Shown: in pieces, positions 3,668-46,471 of the stretch | Numbering within the stretch: the first letter of the stretch is position 1 | How the letters are laid out: every line of letters starts with the position of its first letter | NCBI RefSeq assembly: GCF_025398335.1 | Contig: NZ_JAODOO010000006.1 | Location: forward strand, 186,001-250,000 | Source of the DNA: Clostridium sp. CX1 | GTDB taxonomy: Bacteria > Bacillota > Clostridia > Clostridiales > Clostridiaceae | Length of the DNA: 64,000 nt | Direction: 5' to 3' | Translations under genes and position numbers: made by a program | Notes under the pieces: generated by a model | Database searches by the model: none | Told to the model about the DNA's origin: nothing | The model's input: the letters and a program-made list of their open reading frames with translations, nothing else

Positions 3668-4791
3668 AAAAAAAAAACTTTATTATGATTATTTTATTTA
3701 TCTTCTTCTTTACATTTATAACAATAGGTTTAGAACCTAAATCTGCTGAGGACGTAGCTATAATAGCCGGCACTGGAGTGGATATAGATAAAAGTGCTGC
3801 ACAAGTTATCTATAATTTTCACAGAGACATTTATGTGTTTAAAGAAAATGACCCTACCTCACATATAGTACTTACTGGCTCAGCCTCTACCGTAGCTCAA
3901 ACTAGACAGGAAAGGCATGTAAAATCAAATAAAAAGGAGATTTTAGGACAGGAGAAGATATTTTTAATAAGTGATGAGTATGCTCAATTTGGAATTAAGG
4001 GATTACTAGACTCCTTTTACAAGAACCCAACTACAAATAATGCTTCCTATATGCTTATTTGTAAAGGAAAATCTCTCCCTTATCTTGAACATCAAATTCC
4101 TGGATACCCCAGTTCTTCTGATTTTATGGAAGGGTTAGTTGAGAACTCTAAGGAGTATAACTTTTTTTCAGAAAACTATAACCTTATGGATTTATACATA
4201 AGATCATCAGCTGAAGGAAGAACTACTGCATTGCCTTATATTGAACTGCAGGAAAGTGATGAAAATTCTAAGAAAAAAGAAATTAAAATCACTGGTACTG
4301 CTATACTAAAAAAAGATAAGCTAGTTGCTAAAATTGATATAGAAGATTCTAGAATAATGAACTTACTTAGAGAAAATAAAGTTAGAGGTATACTAAGAAT
4401 TCAAGAGGAACCACAAAAATTTATAGAATACTATGGCAGATCCAAAAGAAAAGTTAAATGCATAAAAGAAGGTGATAAGTATAAATTTATTATTAATTTA
4501 GATATAAAAGGAGACATAGTTTCAAACGAGTTATATAAGAATATAATTACCGACGTAAAACAAAAAAAAGACTTTGAAAAAAAGCTAGCTGAGAAGACTG
4601 AAAAAATGTGTAATGATTTTTTAGACAAGATGAAAAAAGAATATAAGGCGGACTGTTTAGAATTAGGAAAGGTAGCCGCAGAAACCTACGGTAGAAGAAC
4701 AGGTATTGATTGGGATAAGGTAGTAACGGATTCGATTATTGAAGTAAACGCAAAGATTAAGGTTGATACTCAAGGCAGAGGAGACTACTAA
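3661..4791 (+). CDS. Germination receptor C subunit, second copy, without lipobox
   Basis: A 376-residue GerC-family protein: N-terminal hydrophobic helix (residues 7-23), then the conserved domain with KGDIVSNELYKNI and TGIDWDKVV near the end, closely matching the first C copy. Unlike usual GerC proteins there is no cysteine in or just after the hydrophobic segment; the first Cys is beyond residue 130. It is therefore probably held by an uncleaved signal anchor or released after processing, not lipidated. It is the last gene of the visible ger operon, and a weak AT-rich hairpin follows. Confidence 0.88.
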   Translation: MLKKKNFIMIILFIFFFTFITIGLEPKSAEDVAIIAGTGVDIDKSAAQVIYNFHRDIYVFKENDPTSHIVLTGSASTVAQTRQERHVKSNKKEILGQEKIFLISDEYAQFGIKGLLDSFYKNPTTNNASYMLICKGKSLPYLEHQIPGYPSSSDFMEGLVENSKEYNFFSENYNLMDLYIRSSAEGRTTALPYIELQESDENSKKKEIKITGTAILKKDKLVAKIDIEDSRIMNLLRENKVRGILRIQEEPQKFIEYYGRSKRKVKCIKEGDKYKFIINLDIKGDIVSNELYKNIITDVKQKKDFEKKLAEKTEKMCNDFLDKMKKEYKADCLELGKVAAETYGRRTGIDWDKVVTDSIIEVNAKIKVDTQGRGDY

Positions 4792-36875: not shown

Positions 36876-37532
36876 CTAACAATTCCTCGTTTGCATTAAT
36901 TCATATTGCTTAATTAAGAAATATGAAACCATAATTCCCGCTTCATTAATAGCTTCTGTATCTAGATACTGATTAGCACTTATATCAAATAGGATATTAG
37001 CAGAACCTTTGAATTCCTCATCACCTAACCACAGTTTAATTGTTAACGGAAACTTAGGAAAAAGGTGTATTTTAGCACAGACGTCGCCCCCTTCTTCAAT
37101 GGAAGCACCCAGTTTAAGACATGCCGCTTTTATTTGCTCTACTGGTTCTTGTGAAAACTTTTTTACTAGGGGATTAATGATTTTACTCAAAATAGCTGGA
37201 TAATTAACAGATCCATTTTCTAGCTCACGATATGAGATTAATTTATTTGTAATGGGAGTGTTATCTGCTCGGGAAAGATAATGAAGAATAAGCCATCTCC
37301 AATTCCATGGAGGCATATGTTTTGAATTGCTGAAAACTATCTCACCCTCTGGATATTTTACATCAAGCATTTGTCCAAGACTTTTTATCCGCATAGTAGA
37401 TTGTTTTGAATCAAAAGTTGCTCCACTTTTTTCCGACATCTTAAGCGGAGCTTTTTCTGCAAAGCATTTAACAGCATATTCTAGTGCTGGTTTATAACCA
37501 TCTTTATCCTCGCCTATCATATAAGGAAACAT
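36876..37532 (-). CDS. DUF3786-family protein
   Basis: A 218-residue soluble protein. The pattern EYAVKCFAEKAPLKMSEKSGATFDSKQSTMRIKSLGQMLDVKYPEGEIVF, then WRWLILHYLSRADNTPITNKLISYREL, and a late GAS(..)GGDVCAKIHLFPKFPLTIKLWLGDEEFKGSANILFD block, match my recollection of DUF3786, which is common in anaerobes and sometimes linked to Fe-S or corrinoid chemistry. No function is established. The ATG at 37532 is used since AGGAGG abuts the upstream ATG and is better spaced for this one. It is monocistronic. Confidence 0.75.
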   Translation of the reverse strand: MFPYMIGEDKDGYKPALEYAVKCFAEKAPLKMSEKSGATFDSKQSTMRIKSLGQMLDVKYPEGEIVFSNSKHMPPWNWRWLILHYLSRADNTPITNKLISYRELENGSVNYPAILSKIINPLVKKFSQEPVEQIKAACLKLGASIEEGGDVCAKIHLFPKFPLTIKLWLGDEEFKGSANILFDISANQYLDTEAINEAGIMVSYFLIKQYELMQTRNC

Positions 37533-37724
37533 TATTTTCATCCTCCTAACAAGTGAAATTAATTAATAAAGTTTACTAATGAATATTCCTTTTGTCATAG
37601 TACTAGCACTTCGGTACCTGCATCCCAAAAAAAGTCGAGCTGATGACAAGAGTTGGGGTCAAAAGGTTAGTTTATCAATTTGTTACTTAAGTAGTAACCA
37701 AATATCCTAATATATCTTTATCAT

Positions 37725-37948
37725 GTTTGAACATTTACTTACTTTGATTTAAGTATATTGTACAACTGGAATATATTCTCAAACAAGTATGCACTTTTTT
37801 GACGCATACTATCTAGGAAGATAGTGTAAATATGAAGGAATACAAAGGCTCTGTTGCTGACAACCAAGACACTTGTTTTTGCTATGCACTTTCTATTATC
37901 AACGGAAAGAGAAGAATAATATTGTTTTTATTATTCTCCTTCCTGTAG
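37725..37948 (+). pseudogene. Truncated duplicate of the HxlR gene at 46136 with its upstream region
   Basis: Bases 37725-37909 align without gaps in length to 46029-46213, the promoter region and first codons of the intact HxlR gene. Over the last 125 bp the match is about 90 percent. From the ATG at 37832 the frame reads MKEYKGSVADNQDTCFCYAL, then diverges right after the GGAAAG that encodes GK, and stops at 37946-37948 after 38 codons. The wing-helix domain is missing, and the ribosome site is weakened (AGGAAG instead of AGGAGG). The operator-like inverted repeat AGTATGC/GCATAC is preserved. It is a remnant, not a functional gene. Confidence 0.88.
37909..37945 (-). terminator. Terminator-like hairpin downstream of the coiled-coil protein gene
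   Basis: AGAATAAT pairs with ATTATTCT around 37913-37937, extended by GGAAAGAG/TTCC. It lies immediately downstream of the minus-strand gene ending at 37965. The T-rich flank is modest. Confidence 0.45.
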
Positions 37949-37964
37949 CTTACTATCATTTAGG

Positions 37965-38186
37965 TTAATTAGTCCGTTTTTTTCGTAATAACTCTTCTAA
38001 CTCATTGATAGATTCCTTTAGATCATTTATTTCAATTTGATATTTTTCTGCTACAGAACTAGAGAGATGAATCCCCCTTTGGCCTAGTACAAATCCTCTT
38101 TCCTCTTCTATATCTTCAAGATATTCCTTAAGTCTTATAAGCCTTTTTTCCAATTCCTCTATACTCATTTTTTCAAAAGCACTCAT
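37965..38186 (-). CDS. Small coiled-coil protein of unknown function
   Basis: A 73-residue, highly charged helical protein, MSAFEKMSIEELEKRLIRLKEYL onward, with heptad-like leucines to the end (LKESINELEELLRK). A short polar linker (QRGIHLSSSVAEKYQ) breaks it into a helical hairpin. The ATG at 38186 is preferred with GGGGAG about eleven bases upstream. There is no cysteine, signal or membrane segment. Such proteins are often assembly factors or small regulators, but nothing here tells which. It lies just outside the HxlR remnant. Confidence 0.6.
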   Translation of the reverse strand: MSAFEKMSIEELEKRLIRLKEYLEDIEEERGFVLGQRGIHLSSSVAEKYQIEINDLKESINELEELLRKKRTN

Positions 38187-38829
38187 TATTATCCACACTC
38201 CCCTTAATTTAATATTAATAAATACTCTTTACTCTTTTTAACAATATACCAGAAGCTTTTGCCTCAAAATATAAGTTCAAGTCACTTTTGTTTAGTTTTT
38301 AACTACCTTGTCCATATTCCTCCGTGACAAATAGTATCTTAATTTTTCTTGAAAATATGGACAATAACCCATATGTTTATAGGTTTAGTATATGTACAAC
38401 AAACCCGCTGGTCAATGAGCTCGGCAGGTTTTCTTCTATTTGGATTATAAATCCTTCTAAATGGAGTGAGTATATAAAATCTTCCCCTTCATTTTTGATT
38501 CACACTGAAAATTATAATTGATATTACCTTAAAATCTTATATACCTTTGTCCTAAAAAACCATCGATAGCTTATTCTGTTCGCTCCATTTTGGAGTATTT
38601 TTGCTCCAAATGGTATGAACTTTGTCAACTCCATTGACCCTTAAACTTATCATTTATATACTGAACCTGTGAATGGTTAAATAATGTAATCAAACTTCAG
38701 ATTTCATCGTAAGCTGGGGATGGAACTTCAGCAGAAATTGGTAGTAACAGAAATATAGCTTCACTATATGATTACATTGAAACTATGATTGAAGAAATAA
38801 AAAAATTAAAGAAAGAATGGGGAGATAAG
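38187..38829. other. Gene-poor stretch upstream of cooC with a possible coding remnant
   Basis: Bases 38585-38613 form a hairpin CCATTTTGGAG/CTCCAAATGG inside a GTTC/GAAC pair, with T residues in the loop only. From the stop at 38710 the frame of cooC is open for 39 codons before its start codon and reads protein-like (AGDGTSAEIGSNRNIASLYD at first). This may be the tail of a lost gene. A 65-codon frame at 38324-38521 has no ribosome site or family resemblance and was not called. Confidence 0.5.
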
Positions 38830-39600
38830 ATGGCACACGTAATTGCAGTTGCAGGAAAAGGTGGTGTTGGTAAAACAACGCTGACAGGTTTATTGATTGA
38901 ATATTTAGTGCAAACCGGGAAAAAACCAATCTTAGCGGTAGACGCAGATGCAAACTCCAATCTAAATGAAGTATTAGGTGTTGAAACGAGCATGACACTT
39001 GGACAGGTTAGGGAAGAATTAGAACGAGCAGGAATGGATTTACAAAGTAAGATCCCTGCCGGTATGACTAAGGCAGATTATCTAGAAATGCGCATGAATA
39101 ATGCAATAACGGAAGAGGATGATTTTGATTTGATGATTATGGGACGTTCCCAGGGGCAGGGTTGTTACTGCTTTGTAAATGGTCTTCTAGAGAGGCAGAT
39201 TCAGAAACTTCAGGGGAATTATCCATACATTGTAGTAGATAATGAAGCTGGAATGGAGCATATTAGCAGAGGAATTCTTCCTAATGTTGATACTATGATT
39301 CTAGTCAGTGATTGTTCCAGAAGAGGAGTTCAGGCAGCAGGAAGAATTGCAGAGTTGATAAGTGAGTCTAATATGCACCCAAAGTATATGGGTTTAATTG
39401 TAAATAGAGCACCAGAAGGCAAATTAAATCCTGGAACGCTAGAAGAGATAGAAAAACAAGGTCTTAAACTTCTCGGTATTGTTCCTCAGGATGATATGGT
39501 TTATCAATATGATTGTGCTGGAAAGCCAATGGTGAAATTACCTGAAAGCTCTCCTGTAAAAAATGCTCTTAAGGATATCATCGAAAAATTAGCTATATAG
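38830..39600 (+). CDS. CooC-like P-loop ATPase (nickel/CO dehydrogenase maturation family)
   Basis: A 256-residue MinD/Mrp-type ATPase: deviant Walker A AGKGGVGKTTLTG (about 8-20), switch VDADANSNLNEVLG, and the CooC-typical CxC motif in QGQGCYCFVNGLLE (about 111-124), which in CooC binds nickel at a dimer interface. Walker B-like VVDNEAGMEHIS follows. CooC inserts nickel into CO dehydrogenase using ATP. No CO dehydrogenase gene lies in the window, so the client is elsewhere or different. The ATG at 38830 is chosen by alignment of the Walker motif and GGGGAG; an in-frame ATG at 38785 would add a charged extension. A terminator follows at 39623-39660. Confidence 0.88.
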   Translation: MAHVIAVAGKGGVGKTTLTGLLIEYLVQTGKKPILAVDADANSNLNEVLGVETSMTLGQVREELERAGMDLQSKIPAGMTKADYLEMRMNNAITEEDDFDLMIMGRSQGQGCYCFVNGLLERQIQKLQGNYPYIVVDNEAGMEHISRGILPNVDTMILVSDCSRRGVQAAGRIAELISESNMHPKYMGLIVNRAPEGKLNPGTLEEIEKQGLKLLGIVPQDDMVYQYDCAGKPMVKLPESSPVKNALKDIIEKLAI

Positions 39601-39622
39601 AGACGAGTTATATAAAAAAATA

Positions 39623-39660
39623 AACCCAGTAACAGAGCAAGATAGCTTTTTTACTGGGTT
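39623..39660. terminator. Bidirectional terminator between cooC and the AraC regulator
   Basis: AACCCAGTAA (39623-39632) pairs with TTACTGGGTT (39651-39660) around an 18-nt loop ending in six T residues. It lies between convergent genes. Confidence 0.75.
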
Positions 39661-40651
39661 ATAAGCAATTAATAACATCGTAGGACTCTATTTGATGTTG
39701 CAATCGATATTCCGTTGGAGAAACCTTCATAATTTTCTTGAAAGCCGTTGCAAATTTACCCTGATTTTCGTAGCCTACCTGCTTAGCGATGTCAGCTATC
39801 ATATCATTGCCTCGGCGTAGCAAATTAGCAGCCTGGTGAATGCGATATTCTTTCATGTAGGTGGCAATTGGCTGTCCATAAACACCTTTGAAAGTTGACT
39901 TTAAGGTTGCTGTATTAATTAAGTATTCTTTAGATAATTCTTCAATTGTTGGTCTTTCTCGAAGATTGGATATAAGTTGTTTGTGAACTCTTTTAATAAT
40001 TTCAACCTGTGGAGATAGATATTGCTCTCGCTGCTTTTCTTTATTCACATCAATCATCCATAGGAATAGCAGCAGTTCCTGCACCTTCAGTTTGAAATAG
40101 GGACGCTGCACACAATTTGGTAATGAATAAAGTTTAGAAAAAATATGTTCAATTTCATCGCGGGCAGGCATAACTAAGTAATGGTCATCTTCGCAGAACT
40201 TCCTTTTAAATTCATTGATATTAATGGCTGTATTGCACAAAATTTCAGGTGGATAATCGGCTACTTTATCTAAATCAACAACAACTCCAATGCCGCGATA
40301 AAGCTTTACTGGAAAACTCATAGTAGAAGAAACACAGTTGTCCATCATATGAATAGAAAGATCTCCTTCCCCAAGATACATACAAGCACCACTCTCTAGT
40401 TGCCAACCAACGCGTCCTTCCTGGCAATAATTAATTTGCATTGTATTACCATAGGGCTTATGTTGAAAGGTACAGCTGGTGGAATCAAAATTAGCTAAAA
40501 AGAGTTCAATACCGGGAAAAACCTGATAAACTGTCATATCTCCTTGACCATCCAGGCAGTCCAGCTTATATAATGTGTGAAAACCATCTTTACTTTGTTG
40601 AACAACCTTGGATACCTGGTTCAAAAACTGAAATTTTCCGGTGGTATTCAT
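39659..40651 (-). CDS. AraC-family transcriptional regulator
   Basis: A 330-residue protein with a non-catalytic N-terminal ligand-type domain (about 1-220) and a C-terminal pair of AraC helix-turn-helix motifs (ISNLRERPTIEELSKEYLINTATLKSTFKGVYGQPIATYMKEYRI, then IADIAKQVGYENQGKFATAFKKIMKVSPTEYR). The ATG at 40651 is used since AAAGGA precedes it. It lies downstream of and on the same strand as nadE, separated by about 185 bp, and may be transcribed alone. Its base composition is richer in G+C than the genes to its left, like the NAD genes. The target and ligand are unknown. Confidence 0.9.
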   Translation of the reverse strand: MNTTGKFQFLNQVSKVVQQSKDGFHTLYKLDCLDGQGDMTVYQVFPGIELFLANFDSTSCTFQHKPYGNTMQINYCQEGRVGWQLESGACMYLGEGDLSIHMMDNCVSSTMSFPVKLYRGIGVVVDLDKVADYPPEILCNTAININEFKRKFCEDDHYLVMPARDEIEHIFSKLYSLPNCVQRPYFKLKVQELLLFLWMIDVNKEKQREQYLSPQVEIIKRVHKQLISNLRERPTIEELSKEYLINTATLKSTFKGVYGQPIATYMKEYRIHQAANLLRRGNDMIADIAKQVGYENQGKFATAFKKIMKVSPTEYRLQHQIESYDVINCL

Positions 40652-40835
40652 TGCGTTATCCTTTCGTTGCATTCGTTTAATATTGGATTGAAGCCTAAAA
40701 AATTCTCTATTTTTCTTAAACTTACACCCTTATCTTAATATATAAATCCATGAATAATTACTCATATATTCATATTATATTCCTTACTATAGTCTTTGTA
40801 AATAAAGCCTATACTATTTTCCTTCAAACAAATGC

Positions 40836-41654
40836 TTACTTCCACCAAGTATCAAATGGAGTTACAAGCAATTCTCGTTTATGCTTTGTTACTTCAAATC
40901 GATTTTCAATACTCGTCTTAACACTAGGTGCAACTTCTTTACCCAATAAATATTGGTCAAGAACATTGTATTCAATGCCTAGTTCCGTCTCATCTGCTTG
41001 CTGAGGTTTGTTATCGAGCAAGTCTGCCGTTGGAGTCTTAAGATAAAGTTGTTCGGGAGCATTAAGCTCCTTCAAAAGTTCACGGCCCTGTCCTTTTGTA
41101 AGGCCGGCTAAAGGAAGGATATCGGCTCCCCCGTCGCCGAATTTCGTGAAGAATCCTGTTACAGATTCTGCTGCATGATCCGTACCGATAACCAGACACT
41201 GCTGCTCCCCAGCAATAGCGTATTGGGCAACCATACGCATTCTGGCTTTAACATTACCCTTGTGATAATCAGCAAGGTTCTCACCTGTGGCATTAGTATA
41301 TACCCTGATAAAAGCTGTGACGGGATCCTTAATGTTAAGGACAAAGGTCTGGTCGGGCTTGATAAATGCAAGAGCCCTTTGAGCATCTTCTTCATCTTTT
41401 TGCATTCCATAAGGGAGGCGAAGGGCATAAAATTTGGCTTTATAACCTTCTGTCCTCAGTTCTTCAACCGCCAATTGTGACAGCCGCCCGGCAAGGGTGG
41501 AGTCTTGACCGCCACTGATACCCAAAACAAAACCTTTTGCTCCTGCTTTCATACAATATGCTTTGAGAAAATCAATCCTGCTCTGAATCTCCTTCTTGGC
41601 GTTGATCTCTGGTTTCACATTCAACGCTTGGATGATTTCCATTTGTTTGCTCAA
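40836..41654 (-). CDS. nadE: Ammonia-dependent NAD synthetase
   Basis: A 272-residue enzyme with the ATP-pyrophosphatase loop [44 protein letters not shown] and the GTDHAAE and [19 protein letters not shown] blocks typical of NH3-dependent NadE. It amidates nicotinate adenine dinucleotide to NAD. There is no glutaminase domain. A TTG at 41654 is chosen because GGGGG lies seven bases upstream and the length then fits the family; the ATG eight codons further up overlaps the pncB stop and lacks a ribosome site. It is the last gene of the sirtuin-NAD transcription unit. Confidence 0.93.
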
Positions 41655-41670
41655 TTGGAATTCCCCCTTA

Positions 41671-43125
41671 TTATTCATTCTGTGTTTCGTGCAGAAGGCT
41701 CATCTTTAATTCATAATAATAGGGACTCATATCCAAATAATGCTTATGTGGATTTTCAAATCGCTGCTCTTCTTTCCAAATTTCCTTTTTTAACTGCTGC
41801 TCCACAAAGTTACGAATCTCATCTAGGCTAGGTGCCTGATACACCCGTTTTCCATCTTTCATCACAAGCTGCTGCAATTCTTTCACGGTGCAGTTTGTGA
41901 AGTAGCGGTTTTTCCAAGGTTTTTCTGGATCAACATATCGATATGGTTTGTCCATATCCACCAGTTCGTCCAACCTAGTAATCAGGTCTGCTATGGCGTT
42001 TCCTTCCTCACAGTAGACGCGATATATCTTTTTAAGGCCGGGATTTGTGATTTTCTCAACGGTTTCTGATACCTTTATCCTTGGTACAAATGTTTCATTT
42101 TCTTCTACAGCAGCAATTTTATAAACTGCACCAAATACAGGATCGCTTTTCGCCGTAATCAGACGTTCCCCAACACCAAAGCCATCTATTTTGCTGTCTT
42201 GACCTAGGAGCGAAGTAATGGTATATTCGTCCAGACTGTTCGATACAAAAATCTTACAGTCATTAAGTCCAGCGTCATCCAGCATCCTGCGTACCTTTTT
42301 TGAAAGGTATGCAAGGTCTCCAGAATCTAGACGTATACCCTTTAGTCGTTTCCCCATTGGCTCCAAAACTTCCTTTGCCACACGAATAGCATTTGGAATG
42401 CCAGAATGTATAACATCATAGGTGTCCATGAGAAGCACTGCTGCATCTGGGTAGTTTTTTGCGTAATGTTTAAAGGCCTCATATTCATCTTTGTAGAACA
42501 TTACCCAACTATGTGCCATGGTTCCGCTGACAGGTATTCCAAATTGTTTTCCTGCCATTACGTTAGATGTACTACTGGCTCCACCGATATAAGCAGCTCT
42601 TGCCCCGTAAACAGCCGCATCTATATTATGAGCGCGCCTTGCACCGAAATCGGATACAGCTCGCCCCTCTGCAGCGCACAGGATGCGCCTTGTTTTCGTG
42701 GCAATCAAAGACTGATGGTTGATTTGTGTCAGAATGGCCGTTTCTACTAACTGTGCATCTATGAGGGGGGCTATTACGGTAATAATCGGTTCATTAGGGT
42801 ACATGATAGTTCCTTCCTGGAAGGCGTAAATATCTCCTTTGAATCGGAAATTACTCAGATAGTCCAAGAAGTTTTCGCTAAAGAGATTCAGTGAGCGGAA
42901 ATATTCTATGTCATCTGGATCAAAGTGCAGATTTTCTACATACTCTATTATCTGCTCTAGTCCTGCAAAGATTGCAAAACCTCCATTATCCGGATTTTTA
43001 CGGTAGAATACATCAAATGCCACTTTCTTCATCTCATTTTGCCCAGCAAAATATCCATTTGCCATAGTCATTTCATATAAATCCATCATCATACTGATAT
43101 TGCGCTTATCAAACTGTGTCATCAT
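41671..43125 (-). CDS. pncB: Nicotinate phosphoribosyltransferase
   Basis: A 484-residue enzyme of normal length. Markers are [12 protein letters not shown] near the start, [24 protein letters not shown], the phosphoribosyl region SDFGARRAH and [12 protein letters not shown], and [22 protein letters not shown]. It converts nicotinate and PRPP to nicotinate mononucleotide, the entry step of NAD salvage. It begins inside the 3' end of the truncated nicotinamidase gene and shares its GGAGGGG ribosome site with that gene's final codons. nadE follows directly. Visible G+C is higher than in most of the window, suggesting acquisition. Confidence 0.94.
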
Positions 43126-43456
43126 CTTCCCCTCCGATCACTGCAATCAATTCAGCAAGCTCTATTGAACCGAAAGACGGCTTTTCAATCACCTGACATC
43201 CGCTCACATACACCCTTTGGAAAATTCCCCAGCCAGGCGTCCCTTTTATGCAATGCGGAACAGGAAGCTTCTTCCCTTCTTGTGTCTGAAGGTAAGTCTT
43301 AGTATGGGTATCTTGTGTATAAATGACTGTGTCACCTGTTACTAGATAACTGTCAATCTTAGCCTTCGCAGAATCAACAATTTCTACAGCTTCCTTAGTA
43401 CCAAGTGATCCATTAATAAAATCATTCTGCATATCAATTACCACTAAAACTTTCAT
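43109..43456 (-). CDS. Truncated nicotinamidase (PncA-like), probably inactive
   Basis: A 115-residue isochorismatase-fold protein with the catalytic Asp in VVIDMQNDFINGSLG, the metal and Lys region DTHTKTYLQTQEGKKLPVPHCIKGTPGW, and KPSFGSIELAELI. Full nicotinamidases run about 180 residues, and the part after this motif carries the nucleophile Cys (GLCTDIC-type block). Here the frame ends after [11 protein letters not shown], so the nucleophile and last third are missing. The final codons overlap the pncB start by 17 bp, as if a deletion fused the two. It would have made nicotinate from nicotinamide. It has a strong ribosome site (AGGAGGG) and may be translated but inactive. Confidence 0.8.
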   Translation of the reverse strand: MKVLVVIDMQNDFINGSLGTKEAVEIVDSAKAKIDSYLVTGDTVIYTQDTHTKTYLQTQEGKKLPVPHCIKGTPGWGIFQRVYVSGCQVIEKPSFGSIELAELIAVIGGEDDDTV

Positions 43457-43553
43457 TCCTTAATCCCTCCTTACTGCTATATGTGTCAGAATGGCCTCTA
43501 TAAGAGGATTTAATTTACTTTAAGCTATGCTTGCATGTTTCTTTAATAGTTAT

Positions 43554-44123
43554 CTACTTATTACCTTTCTGCAAAAAATATTTTGCAAAGTCAACAAGTT
43601 TATGTGCTTCTTCTGTGCGAAGCATATTTACATCCAAACCACCTGGACCTAGGCGAAAGCGATCCAATCCATCAGCATCCTTGAAAATCTTATATAACAG
43701 CATGCATCTTTCGCTTACAATAGGCGCTTTTGCAATCTCTGACAATCCAATGGTATCATCTTGGTCATGGTAATACATGATGTAATAAGTTTGATAATCA
43801 AAAGGCATATCATGCTCACAGCAATAATCTGCATAATATTCTGCTGCTCGTTTGCCATGTCCCTTATCCAGCCAATCATCGAGGCGCCGGGAATCATGAA
43901 AAATAGCCGCCATGCTAAGTGCATCCATTTCTTCATAACTTAGTCCAATTTGATGTGCTATGACAAGTGACAACAGCAGCACCCGGGCACAATGCTCTTT
44001 GGTGTGCTTTACACTATCCTTTAACCAAAACTGGATATTTTGCTCCATAAATTCATACCATTTTTTATAGCGCCTTTCCACTGGCTGGCATATAGGATCT
44101 TTCATAACCTGTTTTAAAAGCAT
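43554..44123 (-). CDS. HD-domain phosphohydrolase-like protein
   Basis: A 189-residue protein with the HD metal-site pattern in order: His in KHTKEHCARVL (about 40), the His-Asp pair in AAIFHDSRRLDDWL (about 75), and a late Asp in KDADGLDRFRLG (about 150). HD proteins hydrolyse phosphate esters, often of nucleotides. The substrate is not predictable, but its place between the sirtuin genes and NAD salvage genes, with all stops and starts within about 40-100 bp, suggests a nucleotide or pyridine-nucleotide product. The GLGPGGLDVNMLRT-type end is not familiar to me. The ribosome site is AAAGGAG. Confidence 0.8.
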   Translation of the reverse strand: MLLKQVMKDPICQPVERRYKKWYEFMEQNIQFWLKDSVKHTKEHCARVLLLSLVIAHQIGLSYEEMDALSMAAIFHDSRRLDDWLDKGHGKRAAEYYADYCCEHDMPFDYQTYYIMYYHDQDDTIGLSEIAKAPIVSERCMLLYKIFKDADGLDRFRLGPGGLDVNMLRTEEAHKLVDFAKYFLQKGNK

Positions 44124-44159
44124 TTTTTTCTCCTTTATTCTAACACTTGCATATTTTAC

Positions 44160-45005
44160 TTATCTCATCTGTACCAATTGCTGTAACACTTCTGCAATAT
44201 CACCGTCAATACCTATGGATTTAGCCGCAATTGCCTCTGGAATATAAAGATCGCCACCTTTATTAAGGGTAATGTAAGTAGCATTTTTCTCCATATTAGT
44301 TAACTTCATAAATGGTGCTTTAATCATCTGATTTCTAGCACCTACACCTAATTCCAGAAAAACTATTTTTTTGCCATGAGCTTTCTTAATAAAATCCTGA
44401 TAAGCATCACAGCTAGTTTGCCAAGACTTGTCCCTTAGAAAATTCCCATCTAGTTCAATATGAACTTGCATCCTGCCGCCACACTCAGGACATTTAGGAA
44501 TAAGATTTGATGAAACTTTTCCATTCTCTTGGCTTTGTGCCATTTTGATTAGTATTTCATCTCCTAAATAAGTTTTATTATGACAACCATGAGAACATTG
44601 CAGATACCTGCAATTACCTTCTATTTCGAAGAGACGCTCCTTTGGAAAACCTGCCAGTGTAAAATGATTATCTATATTGGAGGTAACAACAAAATAGTTT
44701 TTATCTTTCACCAGTTCATAAAGGTTCTTCATAACTGGACTTGCTTCCTTTTTGTATAAAAAGTATTCGAACATACGGCTGAAAAATGCCCACTTCTCTT
44801 CCTGAGAAGGAAATGGATAAAAACATCCCTGTATAATGCTGTGAAAACCGTGAATTTCACGAAAGTCTCCAAAATTCTTTAGAAAAGCTAAGTTTTCTGC
44901 AAAAATATGATAACCTTCCGAAATTGAAAGACCGTTACTTGCGCCGATAACAATGCTATCCGCTTCTTTGATTTTTTTTAAAACTTCATTATATTTCTCT
45001 TCCAT
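44160..45005 (-). CDS. Class M-like sirtuin (SirTM family), first of two
   Basis: A 281-residue Sir2-fold protein. NAD-binding features are IVIGASNGLSISEGY (about 18-32) and TSNIDNHFTLAGFPKERLFEIEGN (about 110-133). Zinc ligands are two Cys in LQCSHGC and two in PKCPECGG. FLELGVGARN is the second nucleotide motif. The sequence pattern follows SirTM (class M) sirtuins, known as protein ADP-ribosyltransferases in staphylococci and streptococci. The residue at the position of the canonical catalytic His (HG) is Glu here (IEGN). No macrodomain or lipoyl-carrier gene, the usual SirTM partners, is present; instead NAD salvage genes follow. Confidence 0.82.
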   Translation of the reverse strand: MEEKYNEVLKKIKEADSIVIGASNGLSISEGYHIFAENLAFLKNFGDFREIHGFHSIIQGCFYPFPSQEEKWAFFSRMFEYFLYKKEASPVMKNLYELVKDKNYFVVTSNIDNHFTLAGFPKERLFEIEGNCRYLQCSHGCHNKTYLGDEILIKMAQSQENGKVSSNLIPKCPECGGRMQVHIELDGNFLRDKSWQTSCDAYQDFIKKAHGKKIVFLELGVGARNQMIKAPFMKLTNMEKNATYITLNKGGDLYIPEAIAAKSIGIDGDIAEVLQQLVQMR

Positions 45006-45058
45006 CTGTAACTCCTCATTTTTATTAAATTTGTGTTGTGGAATGCTCTATACATTTT

Positions 45059-45916
45059 CTACATATGTGAAGCTAAATCACTCAGTACTTGTGCAATATC
45101 AGCATCCATTGTTATTGTTTTATTTATTAAATAATCAGGAGTGGTATCTTCACCTTTATTAATACGAACTAAAAAAGCATTTGGCCAGTTATAAGCCATT
45201 TGAGTAAATGGGTATTTAATTATATTTGGTGTCATAGGTCCAACACCTAGTTCTATGAATACAACTTTTTTATTAGAATTCTCAGCTAAAAATGTCCTAT
45301 ATTTATTAAGTCCATCTTCCCAGAATTCCCCCTCTAAAAAGACAAAGGAACGTATCCAAGGCTCCATTTCCCCGCCACACATTGGGCATCTTGGAATCAG
45401 CTCTGTAGGAACTCTCGTATCCTTAGCACTAGTAGCCATGTTTCTAACAATATCCTCAGCGGGATAAACCTTATCGTGACAGGGTTTTGCACATTGTAAC
45501 CAGTGAGCATCCCCTTGAGGTAGACAAATTTTTTCTTCCGAAAAGAGCTTAGAAAACTGCATATCTTGGTTTGTGGTAATAATAAAATAATTCTTGTCTT
45601 TTATCAGCTTGTGTAAATCCATATAAGTCTGTCCAGGTGGAGTATCAAACATAAGTGTACAGTGTTTAGATAAATAAGCCCATCTTTCTTCGCTTGTTTT
45701 ATATTTATAGTAAAGGGCTTCAAAGTTACCGCGAATCCCATAATTCTTTTCAAATTCACTGAAATTATCAATCCAATACTTGCTATGATTATAAAAATCA
45801 TGACCATTAGCAGTAGACATACCTGATGCACCGCCAACTATAATGGCGTCTGCTTCTTTGATTTTTTGTATTATTGTGTTTATGTTATCTTGATATTGTT
45901 GTTGTATCTGTGACAT
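45059..45916 (-). CDS. Class M-like sirtuin (SirTM family), second of two
   Basis: A 285-residue paralogue of the next gene (same length, same block order): IIVGGASGMSTANGHDFYNHS, TTNQDMQFSKLFSEEKICLPQGDAHWLQC, zinc cysteines in CAKPC and RCPMCGGEM, and FIELGVGPMTPNIIKYPF. Here Gln replaces the catalytic His (LPQGD), as in described SirTM proteins, and the usual NID motif is NQD. It is the first gene of the transcription unit that continues through the second sirtuin, HD protein, truncated nicotinamidase, pncB and nadE. It is divergent from the HxlR regulator. Ribosome site AGGAGG. Confidence 0.84.
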   Translation of the reverse strand: MSQIQQQYQDNINTIIQKIKEADAIIVGGASGMSTANGHDFYNHSKYWIDNFSEFEKNYGIRGNFEALYYKYKTSEERWAYLSKHCTLMFDTPPGQTYMDLHKLIKDKNYFIITTNQDMQFSKLFSEEKICLPQGDAHWLQCAKPCHDKVYPAEDIVRNMATSAKDTRVPTELIPRCPMCGGEMEPWIRSFVFLEGEFWEDGLNKYRTFLAENSNKKVVFIELGVGPMTPNIIKYPFTQMAYNWPNAFLVRINKGEDTTPDYLINKTITMDADIAQVLSDLASHM

Positions 45917-46085
45917 ATTTAATTTTCCTCCTAACGTTATTCATTAATTGGTTAGAGACATTCACTTATATAGCAGCTCATCAAAAACAAATATTAAGAT
46001 ACAGAGCTGTAATGCATTTTTTATTAATGCTTGAACACTGATTTACTTTGTTTCAAATGTATTATATAATCAGTATAGATTTTCA

Positions 46086-46112
46086 AACAAGTATGCACTT
46101 TTTCGACGCATA
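46086..46112. promoter_or_regulatory. Operator-like inverted repeat between sirtuin and HxlR genes
   Basis: AAGTATGC and GCATACT face each other with an 11-nt spacer upstream of the HxlR gene. The same pair is kept in the truncated copy near 37790-37812, and a related AAGTATACAAGTACGC lies before the first HxlR gene. It is a good candidate HxlR binding site controlling the divergent promoters. Confidence 0.5.
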
Positions 46113-46135
46113 CTATCTAGGAGGATAGTGTAAAT

Positions 46136-46471
46136 ATGAAGGAATACAAAGGAGTTGTTGCTGACAGTCAAGACACCTGTTTTGGCTATACACTTTCTAT
46201 TATTAACGGAAAGTGGAAATTGCTAATTATATTTTATTTATCAAAGCACGGGACTGTGCGTTACAACGAATTGCAGCGTATGATAGGTAAAATAACCTAC
46301 AAAACCCTCAGTAGCACATTAAAGGAAATGGAGAGTGATGGCTTAATTCATCGTAAGGAATATCCACAGATTCCTCCAAAGGTCGAATATAGCCTTACTG
46401 AAAAAGGACAAAGTCTTTGGCCCATTATACAGGGAATGTGTCAGTGGGGGGAGCATAATAAAGAAAAATAA
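46136..46471 (+). CDS. HxlR-family transcriptional regulator, second copy
   Basis: A 111-residue winged-helix protein: DTCFGYTLSIINGKWKLLIIFYLSKHG, VRYNELQRMIGKITYKTLSSTLKEMESDGLIHRKEYPQIPPKVEYSLTEKGQSLWPIIQGMCQWG. The conserved Cys in DTCFGY is placed as in redox- or electrophile-sensing HxlR members. It faces the sirtuin-NAD transcription unit and is its likely regulator. Its first 78 bp of code and about 107 bp upstream are duplicated at 37725-37909. The ribosome site AGGAGG lies eleven bases before the ATG. Confidence 0.92.
   Translation: MKEYKGVVADSQDTCFGYTLSIINGKWKLLIIFYLSKHGTVRYNELQRMIGKITYKTLSSTLKEMESDGLIHRKEYPQIPPKVEYSLTEKGQSLWPIIQGMCQWGEHNKEK

Follow-up and report, generated by a model that had tools for sequence, protein, structure and literature searches.

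We analyzed a 64,000-nucleotide stretch of the Clostridium sp. CX1 genome (hereafter the window; positions 186,001 to 250,000 of contig NZ_JAODOO010000006.1) in which two adjacent sirtuin genes, sirA and sirB, head a run of six minus-strand genes that also encode an HD-domain protein and enzymes of nicotinamide adenine dinucleotide (NAD) salvage (Table 1). Going from sirA, the first three intergenic gaps measure 53, 36, and 97 base pairs and the last two junctions are overlaps of 17 and 8 base pairs, a pattern consistent with a single transcription unit. An initial annotation, made from the sequence alone, had described this closely spaced group as divergent from a gene for an HxlR-family regulator, and all of the genes were found where it placed them. 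One ordinary sirtuin is encoded elsewhere in the genome, in addition to SirA and SirB. A search of the open-access literature found no published description of this arrangement.

Table 1. Features of the sirA-sirB locus and its surroundings in the window
Feature	Position	Strand	Basis
sirA (SirA, class M-type sirtuin, 285 amino acids)	45059-45916	minus	Sequence match to SirTM
sirB (SirB, SirTM-fold paralogue, 281 amino acids, separate clade)	44160-45005	minus	Sequence, tree, model
HD-domain protein, 189 amino acids	43554-44123	minus	HD motif; like the metal-ligand-like residues, unchanged across 16 relatives
pncA-like (nicotinamidase-like), 115 amino acids	43109-43456	minus	Isochorismatase match, partial
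pncB, nicotinate phosphoribosyltransferase	41671-43125	minus	NAPRTase (Pfam/NCBIfam)
nadE, NAD synthase	40836-41678	minus	NAD synthase (Pfam/NCBIfam)
hxlR, HxlR-family (RrpA-like) regulator, divergent from sirA	46136-46471	plus	HxlR (Pfam/NCBIfam)
AGTATGC-N11-GCATACT palindrome, predicted HxlR operator	46090-46114	none	Conserved at relatives; 2 genome copies
Predicted sirA promoter	46061-46090	minus	TTGTTT on palindrome edge, TATAAT 18 nucleotides downstream; conserved between species
Second palindrome copy, adjoining truncated hxlR 5' end (ATG at 37832)	37786-37810	none	Upstream of DUF3786 gene
DUF3786 gene	36876-37541	minus	Downstream of second palindrome copy

SirA and SirB are both most similar to the Streptococcus pyogenes SirTM structure 5a3a (E-values of 1.6e-41 and 5e-41), far above any deacylase; for each, the next match is a fungal macrodomain-fused SirTM, and Sir2 (deacylase) domain models match weakly. 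With matches to 5a3a near 1e-41, the class M assignment first given to the two proteins holds for sequence and fold, and neither falls among the deacylase classes, an outcome that had been named beforehand as refuting. The residues reported by Rack et al. as key to SirTM are Asn118, Gln137, Arg192, Ala34, and a GVGx[NT]TP loop (PMC4518038). We compared these positions across 129 SirTM-type sequences (67 ordinary SirTM, 34 SirA-type, and 28 SirB-type, with SirB fragments excluded column by column). Asn118, Gln137, Arg192, and the loop are retained in all 67 ordinary SirTMs. SirA-type proteins keep Asn118, Asp120, Gln137, and the TP of the loop in 34 of 34 sequences and Arg192 in 33 of 34; their [NT] position is occupied by Met or Leu. 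SirA of the window has each of these residues (Asn118, Asp120, Gln137, Arg192, and the loop TP), along with four zinc cysteines. In SirB-type proteins Asn118 is retained, as are the four zinc cysteines; Gln137, by contrast, is replaced by Glu (27/27 readable sequences), Arg192 by Glu, Ala, or Gly (28/28), and Ala34 by Asn (25/25), and the pyrophosphate loop has changed from GVGx[NT]TP to GVGxRN(Q) (28/28); SirB of the window shows all four changes, its loop reading GVGxRNQ. Judged by the SirTM motifs (Gln137 within the QG motif, Arg192, and the TP/GVGx[NT]TP loop), SirA carries them and SirB lacks them. The Glu versus Gln difference at the catalytic position, pointed out initially for the two window proteins, is thus real and conserved.

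In a maximum-likelihood tree obtained by a quick search, the root of which is uncertain, SirB forms one clade (Shimodaira-Hasegawa-like approximate likelihood ratio test support 100) and SirA another (89), both separate from the macrodomain-linked SirTMs. A structural model of SirB (predicted local distance difference test score [pLDDT] 90) superposes on 5a3a at a template modeling (TM) score of 0.92; the gene is thus not in decay but encodes an intact fold whose active site has been remade. SirB is most likely a partner or modulator of SirA; FAM118A and FAM118B illustrate mutual dependence between a pair of sirtuin paralogues (PMC12700824). Alternatively, SirB may itself be active as a new type of enzyme, in which Glu129, at the Gln137 position, would be catalytic close to the nicotinamide ribose, like the glutamate of CD38, TIR, and ART enzymes, making the protein an NAD glycohydrolase or a transferase of other specificity. 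The invariance of the SirB glutamate fits such an activity, as a pseudoenzyme need not hold one residue there, and so do the retained Asn118 and zinc site and the intact fold. However, the changes at Ala34, Arg192, and the pyrophosphate loop occur in all SirBs and argue against canonical NAD binding. We consider an active SirB unlikely. A bolder proposal, that SirB founds a new sirtuin class marked by Glu at the catalytic position and forms an obligate heteromeric enzyme with SirA, that the HD protein takes the place of the macrodomain in removing or processing the ADP-ribose product, and that a dedicated NAD salvage refuels the system, strikes us as distinctly unlikely.

The sirtuin pair recurs widely. 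A scan of GTDB genomes with alignment of SirB relatives, from which the best 80 of 164 loci were taken, yielded 27 loci with a SirB bearing this glutamate (E-type), counting the window and one other, G083. Their hosts include Bacillus, Fredinandcohnia, Lederbergia, Ureibacillus, Cytobacillus, Sporosarcina, Psychrobacillus, and Paenibacillus, as well as Sporomusa, Cellulosilyticum, Lachnospira, other Clostridia, and Myroides. At every locus except the decayed L082, sirA lies ahead of sirB, often in two copies. The association with the HD and salvage genes posited for the window extends beyond this genome, whereas its absence elsewhere had been set as a second refuting outcome: an HD gene is a neighbor at 19 of the 27 pair loci, pncB at 17, pncA at 12, and a Zn-macrodomain gene at none, whereas ordinary SirTM loci have corresponding counts of 0, 1, 0, and 56 out of 66 (Fisher p values from 4e-8 to 2e-15, which are descriptive only, as loci are related and flank lengths differ). 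The same gene order is seen, under standard annotation, on one megaplasmid from Mesobacillus foraminis and one from Paenibacillus sp. 37. Among 398 genomes sampled from the same phylum, the loci examined showed no further E-type SirB beside an HD gene. Most matches were ordinary SirTMs, sirtuins of greater distance, or HD proteins with no sirtuin next to them, and the SirA-SirB system looks rare in this sample. Five of six genus mates have no match to the operon and the sixth has a remnant, and SirB of the window clusters in the tree with Bacilli and Sporomusa rather than Clostridia. This patchiness, together with the grouping of SirB, suggests horizontal transfer of the operon. One pair locus, G083 (L023:3612-11266), contains four intact or remnant genes of the SirTM type, some of them broken, as well as fragments of pncA, and has the appearance of a duplicating and decaying locus.

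The salvage genes provide further indications of a link to the sirtuins. The initial placement of NAD salvage in the sirtuin unit stands, and the association of pncA and pncB recurs; nadE is a local addition to the unit that lies outside the conserved core and is not kept in most relatives. The pncB slot is occupied by two subfamilies, one in Sporomusa and Clostridia that is 70-91% identical to the pncB of the window and one in Bacilli that is 43-46% identical. Nearly all tested genomes that have pncB in the operon carry another copy elsewhere; in the genome of the window the operon pncB is the second, the other (54% identical) being located on contig C2. Bacilli lacking an operon pncB (L052, L057, and L060) have a single pncB each, and Sporomusa is an exception in that the operon pncB is its sole copy. 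In Cellulosilyticum (L066:6967-8088), HD and PncA are fused into one 373-amino-acid protein encoded between sirB and pncB, both domains scoring above their Pfam cut-offs; pncB follows the fusion, and then a nadE that is 30% identical to that of the window. By family, the operon pncA and pncB are standard genes of Preiss-Handler salvage (PncA, PncB, NadD, and NadE), but unlike in that pathway the genes sit inside a sirtuin operon, pncB is an extra copy, and nadD is absent. Because two pncB subfamilies fill one slot, pncB copies are extra, and HD and PncA are fused, the sirtuin-salvage link looks functional. That the sirtuin and salvage genes are passive neighbors with no functional link would accord with the absence of HD or pncB at several loci, yet it leaves unexplained these same three features, the recurrence in distant lineages, and the near-zero counts at the 66 ordinary SirTM loci; we find it scarcely credible.

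For the HD protein we predict a metal-dependent phosphohydrolase activity. Across 16 orthologues, His40, His44, His76-Asp77, His89, His119-Asp120, Asp149, and Asp151 are invariant, and Pfam HD is matched by all 16 relatives, the window protein itself falling below the cut-off. Its confident model (pLDDT 90) has the all-helical fold and the motif of HD-domain phosphohydrolases, but unlike them it has no close characterized relative: the best matches in the Protein Data Bank are weak (E-value about 0.04, TM score about 0.5) and correspond to general HD/PDE folds. A closer identity was sought by structure search and rejected, as only such general relatives were returned. HD relatives without sirtuin neighbors, some of about 450 amino acids, occur at L176:8797-9450 and at L178, L179, and L180; the HD family is therefore wider than the sirtuin operon.

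SirTMs have been regarded as writers that are paired with a macrodomain eraser and that act on a lipoyl carrier where the target is known. The early remark that the operon lacks a macrodomain eraser can be widened, since no macrodomain was found anywhere in the window's genome. The SirTM-type Zn-macrodomain is absent from the flanks examined at all 27 pair loci, and a search with a Zn-macrodomain protein as query detected relatives of full length in 3 of the 21 pair genomes; among ordinary SirTM genomes, 8 of 10 have a near-full-length Zn-macrodomain at 50% identity or more, and a ninth has a partial match at 60%. Of the members of the extended SirTM operon (GcvH-L, LplA2, and OYE/LLM), the model search covered GcvH-L, which was not found in any flank examined. 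Two ordinary GcvH genes are present elsewhere in the window's genome.

These absences also bear on a different reading, in which the operon would serve NAD salvage or pyridine metabolism and its sirtuins would act on a small molecule rather than a protein. Neither a protein target nor an eraser is encoded, and PncA, PncB, isochorismatase-type hydrolases, and HD proteins are small-molecule enzyme families. Known SirTMs nevertheless modify protein (PMC4518038), and SirA retains the motifs of this chemistry, so that we judge the small-molecule alternative decidedly improbable.

The region between hxlR and sirA contains a 25-bp palindrome that overlaps the conserved sirA promoter. When one position of an arm may be either C or T, the palindrome occurs in the window, at 11 Bacilli loci (L052-L062), and at both plasmid loci, and in Sporomusa in one orientation. 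With at most one mismatch, there are exactly two copies in the 4.24-Mb genome and none of a reversed control pattern. The surroundings of the second copy (37786-37981) are nearly identical to those of the first, and the truncated hxlR start next to it halts after about 40 codons; this copy is evidently a duplicated remnant of the hxlR-sirA control region. The regulator of the window is 78-91% identical to that at Bacilli loci, and we infer that it binds the palindrome. Clostridial relatives have an Rrf2 regulator in place of HxlR. The suggestion that the repressor senses redox state is doubtful: sensing through an N-terminal Cys, as in the HypR/YodB type, was rejected because the N-terminal Cys of the window protein is Phe in 14 of 14 close Bacilli orthologues (one further Cys is kept), and the Clostridial loci use Rrf2.

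A defensive role had also been raised initially, and the sirtuin pair could be an NAD-depleting effector against stress or phage that drains NAD once activated, the salvage genes serving in recovery. FAM118A and FAM118B, in which two sirtuin paralogues mutually activate NAD consumption, provide a precedent, and like SirA and SirB they and the bacterial antiphage sirtuins show paralogues kept together; FAM118s, however, are ThsA-like, have a catalytic His, and form filaments, while SirA and SirB are SirTM-type and encoded with salvage genes (PMC12700824). The operon is, in addition, accessory, patchy, and partly located on megaplasmids. Against this, none of the six operon proteins has a PADLOC match, relatives in phage records are weak or fragmentary, salvage genes in the same unit would oppose depletion, and SirTM chemistry as known so far is specific protein modification. 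With nothing convincing from the PADLOC and phage searches, the defense proposal was rejected, and we hold an NAD-depleting effector to be very doubtful. A 5.5-kb record without annotation, listed under the name of a Staphylococcus phage (OR849908.1), encodes a SirTM-like protein at 3733-4545 (33% identical), and the record may be bacterial DNA.

The reading we prefer, to which we assign roughly an even chance (about 0.5), is that the locus is an accessory operon, probably repressed by HxlR, for a variant form of SirTM-type ADP-ribosylation that does without a macrodomain, recycles nicotinamide, and has SirB as a partner or modulator. SirA would spend NAD+ to place ADP-ribose on a target, freeing nicotinamide, from which PncA, PncB, the housekeeping NadD, and, in this genome, NadE could rebuild NAD+; such recycling would let the system run without draining the NAD pool. 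SirB, which keeps the SirTM fold but has lost the SirTM active site, would assist or modulate SirA, and the HD protein may act on the pathway product.

Several observations weigh against this reading. The pncA-like gene of the window has an in-frame internal loss of 63 codons relative to the 178-amino-acid Sporomusa orthologue, removing the catalytic-cysteine region, whereas pncA in relatives is full length. Its product is probably inactive, and recycling here would need another nicotinamidase; three other isochorismatase-family genes are present in the genome, of which one on contig C12 is a candidate (motifs judged by eye). HD, pncB, and pncA are all missing at L052, L060, L067, L070, L073, and L074, some of which are short, and decayed genes are frequent (L051, L063, L058, and G083), indicating that the sirtuin-salvage coupling is not strict. 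The operon encodes no target: a lipoyl carrier within it was considered and rejected, a model search having found no GcvH-like gene in any flank examined. Finally, although the SirB substitutions fall on positions important according to Rack et al., we know of no SirB-like mutant that has been assayed.

The closest known counterparts are the SirTM/Zn-Macro systems (Rack 2015, PMC4518038; Ariza 2024, PMC11490716). Shared features are the SirTM sequence and fold of both sirtuins, the Asn118, Gln137, Arg192, and GVGxxTP loop of SirA, and HxlR regulators near both kinds of locus. The operon differs in having an HD gene and NAD-salvage genes where no Zn-macrodomain or GcvH-L was found, and in encoding a second sirtuin, SirB, that departs from the class motifs. 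If our preferred reading is correct, SirTM chemistry would prove to have been rewired in a widespread two-sirtuin subgroup that lacks such a macrodomain, includes an HD protein, and supplies its own NAD. The pair would offer a comparison for the role of Gln137, a candidate for reversal without a macrodomain, and a way of testing directly whether NAD is budgeted locally for ADP-ribosylation.

Other genes accompany the pair in particular lineages. Most of the Bacilli loci L052-L065 have, immediately past the sirtuin genes, an Lrp-type regulator together with a further hydrolase of the isochorismatase family (e.g., L056:5328-6445), and in Myroides (L070) a hydrolase similar to the latter follows sirB. 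DUF3786, a CooC-like ATPase, and an AraC regulator near the pair in the window (36876-40672) recur near pairs in Oscillospiraceae and Lachnospiraceae (L068, L069, and L073), and apparent metal-transport genes are close to the Lachnospiraceae loci that have these neighbors.

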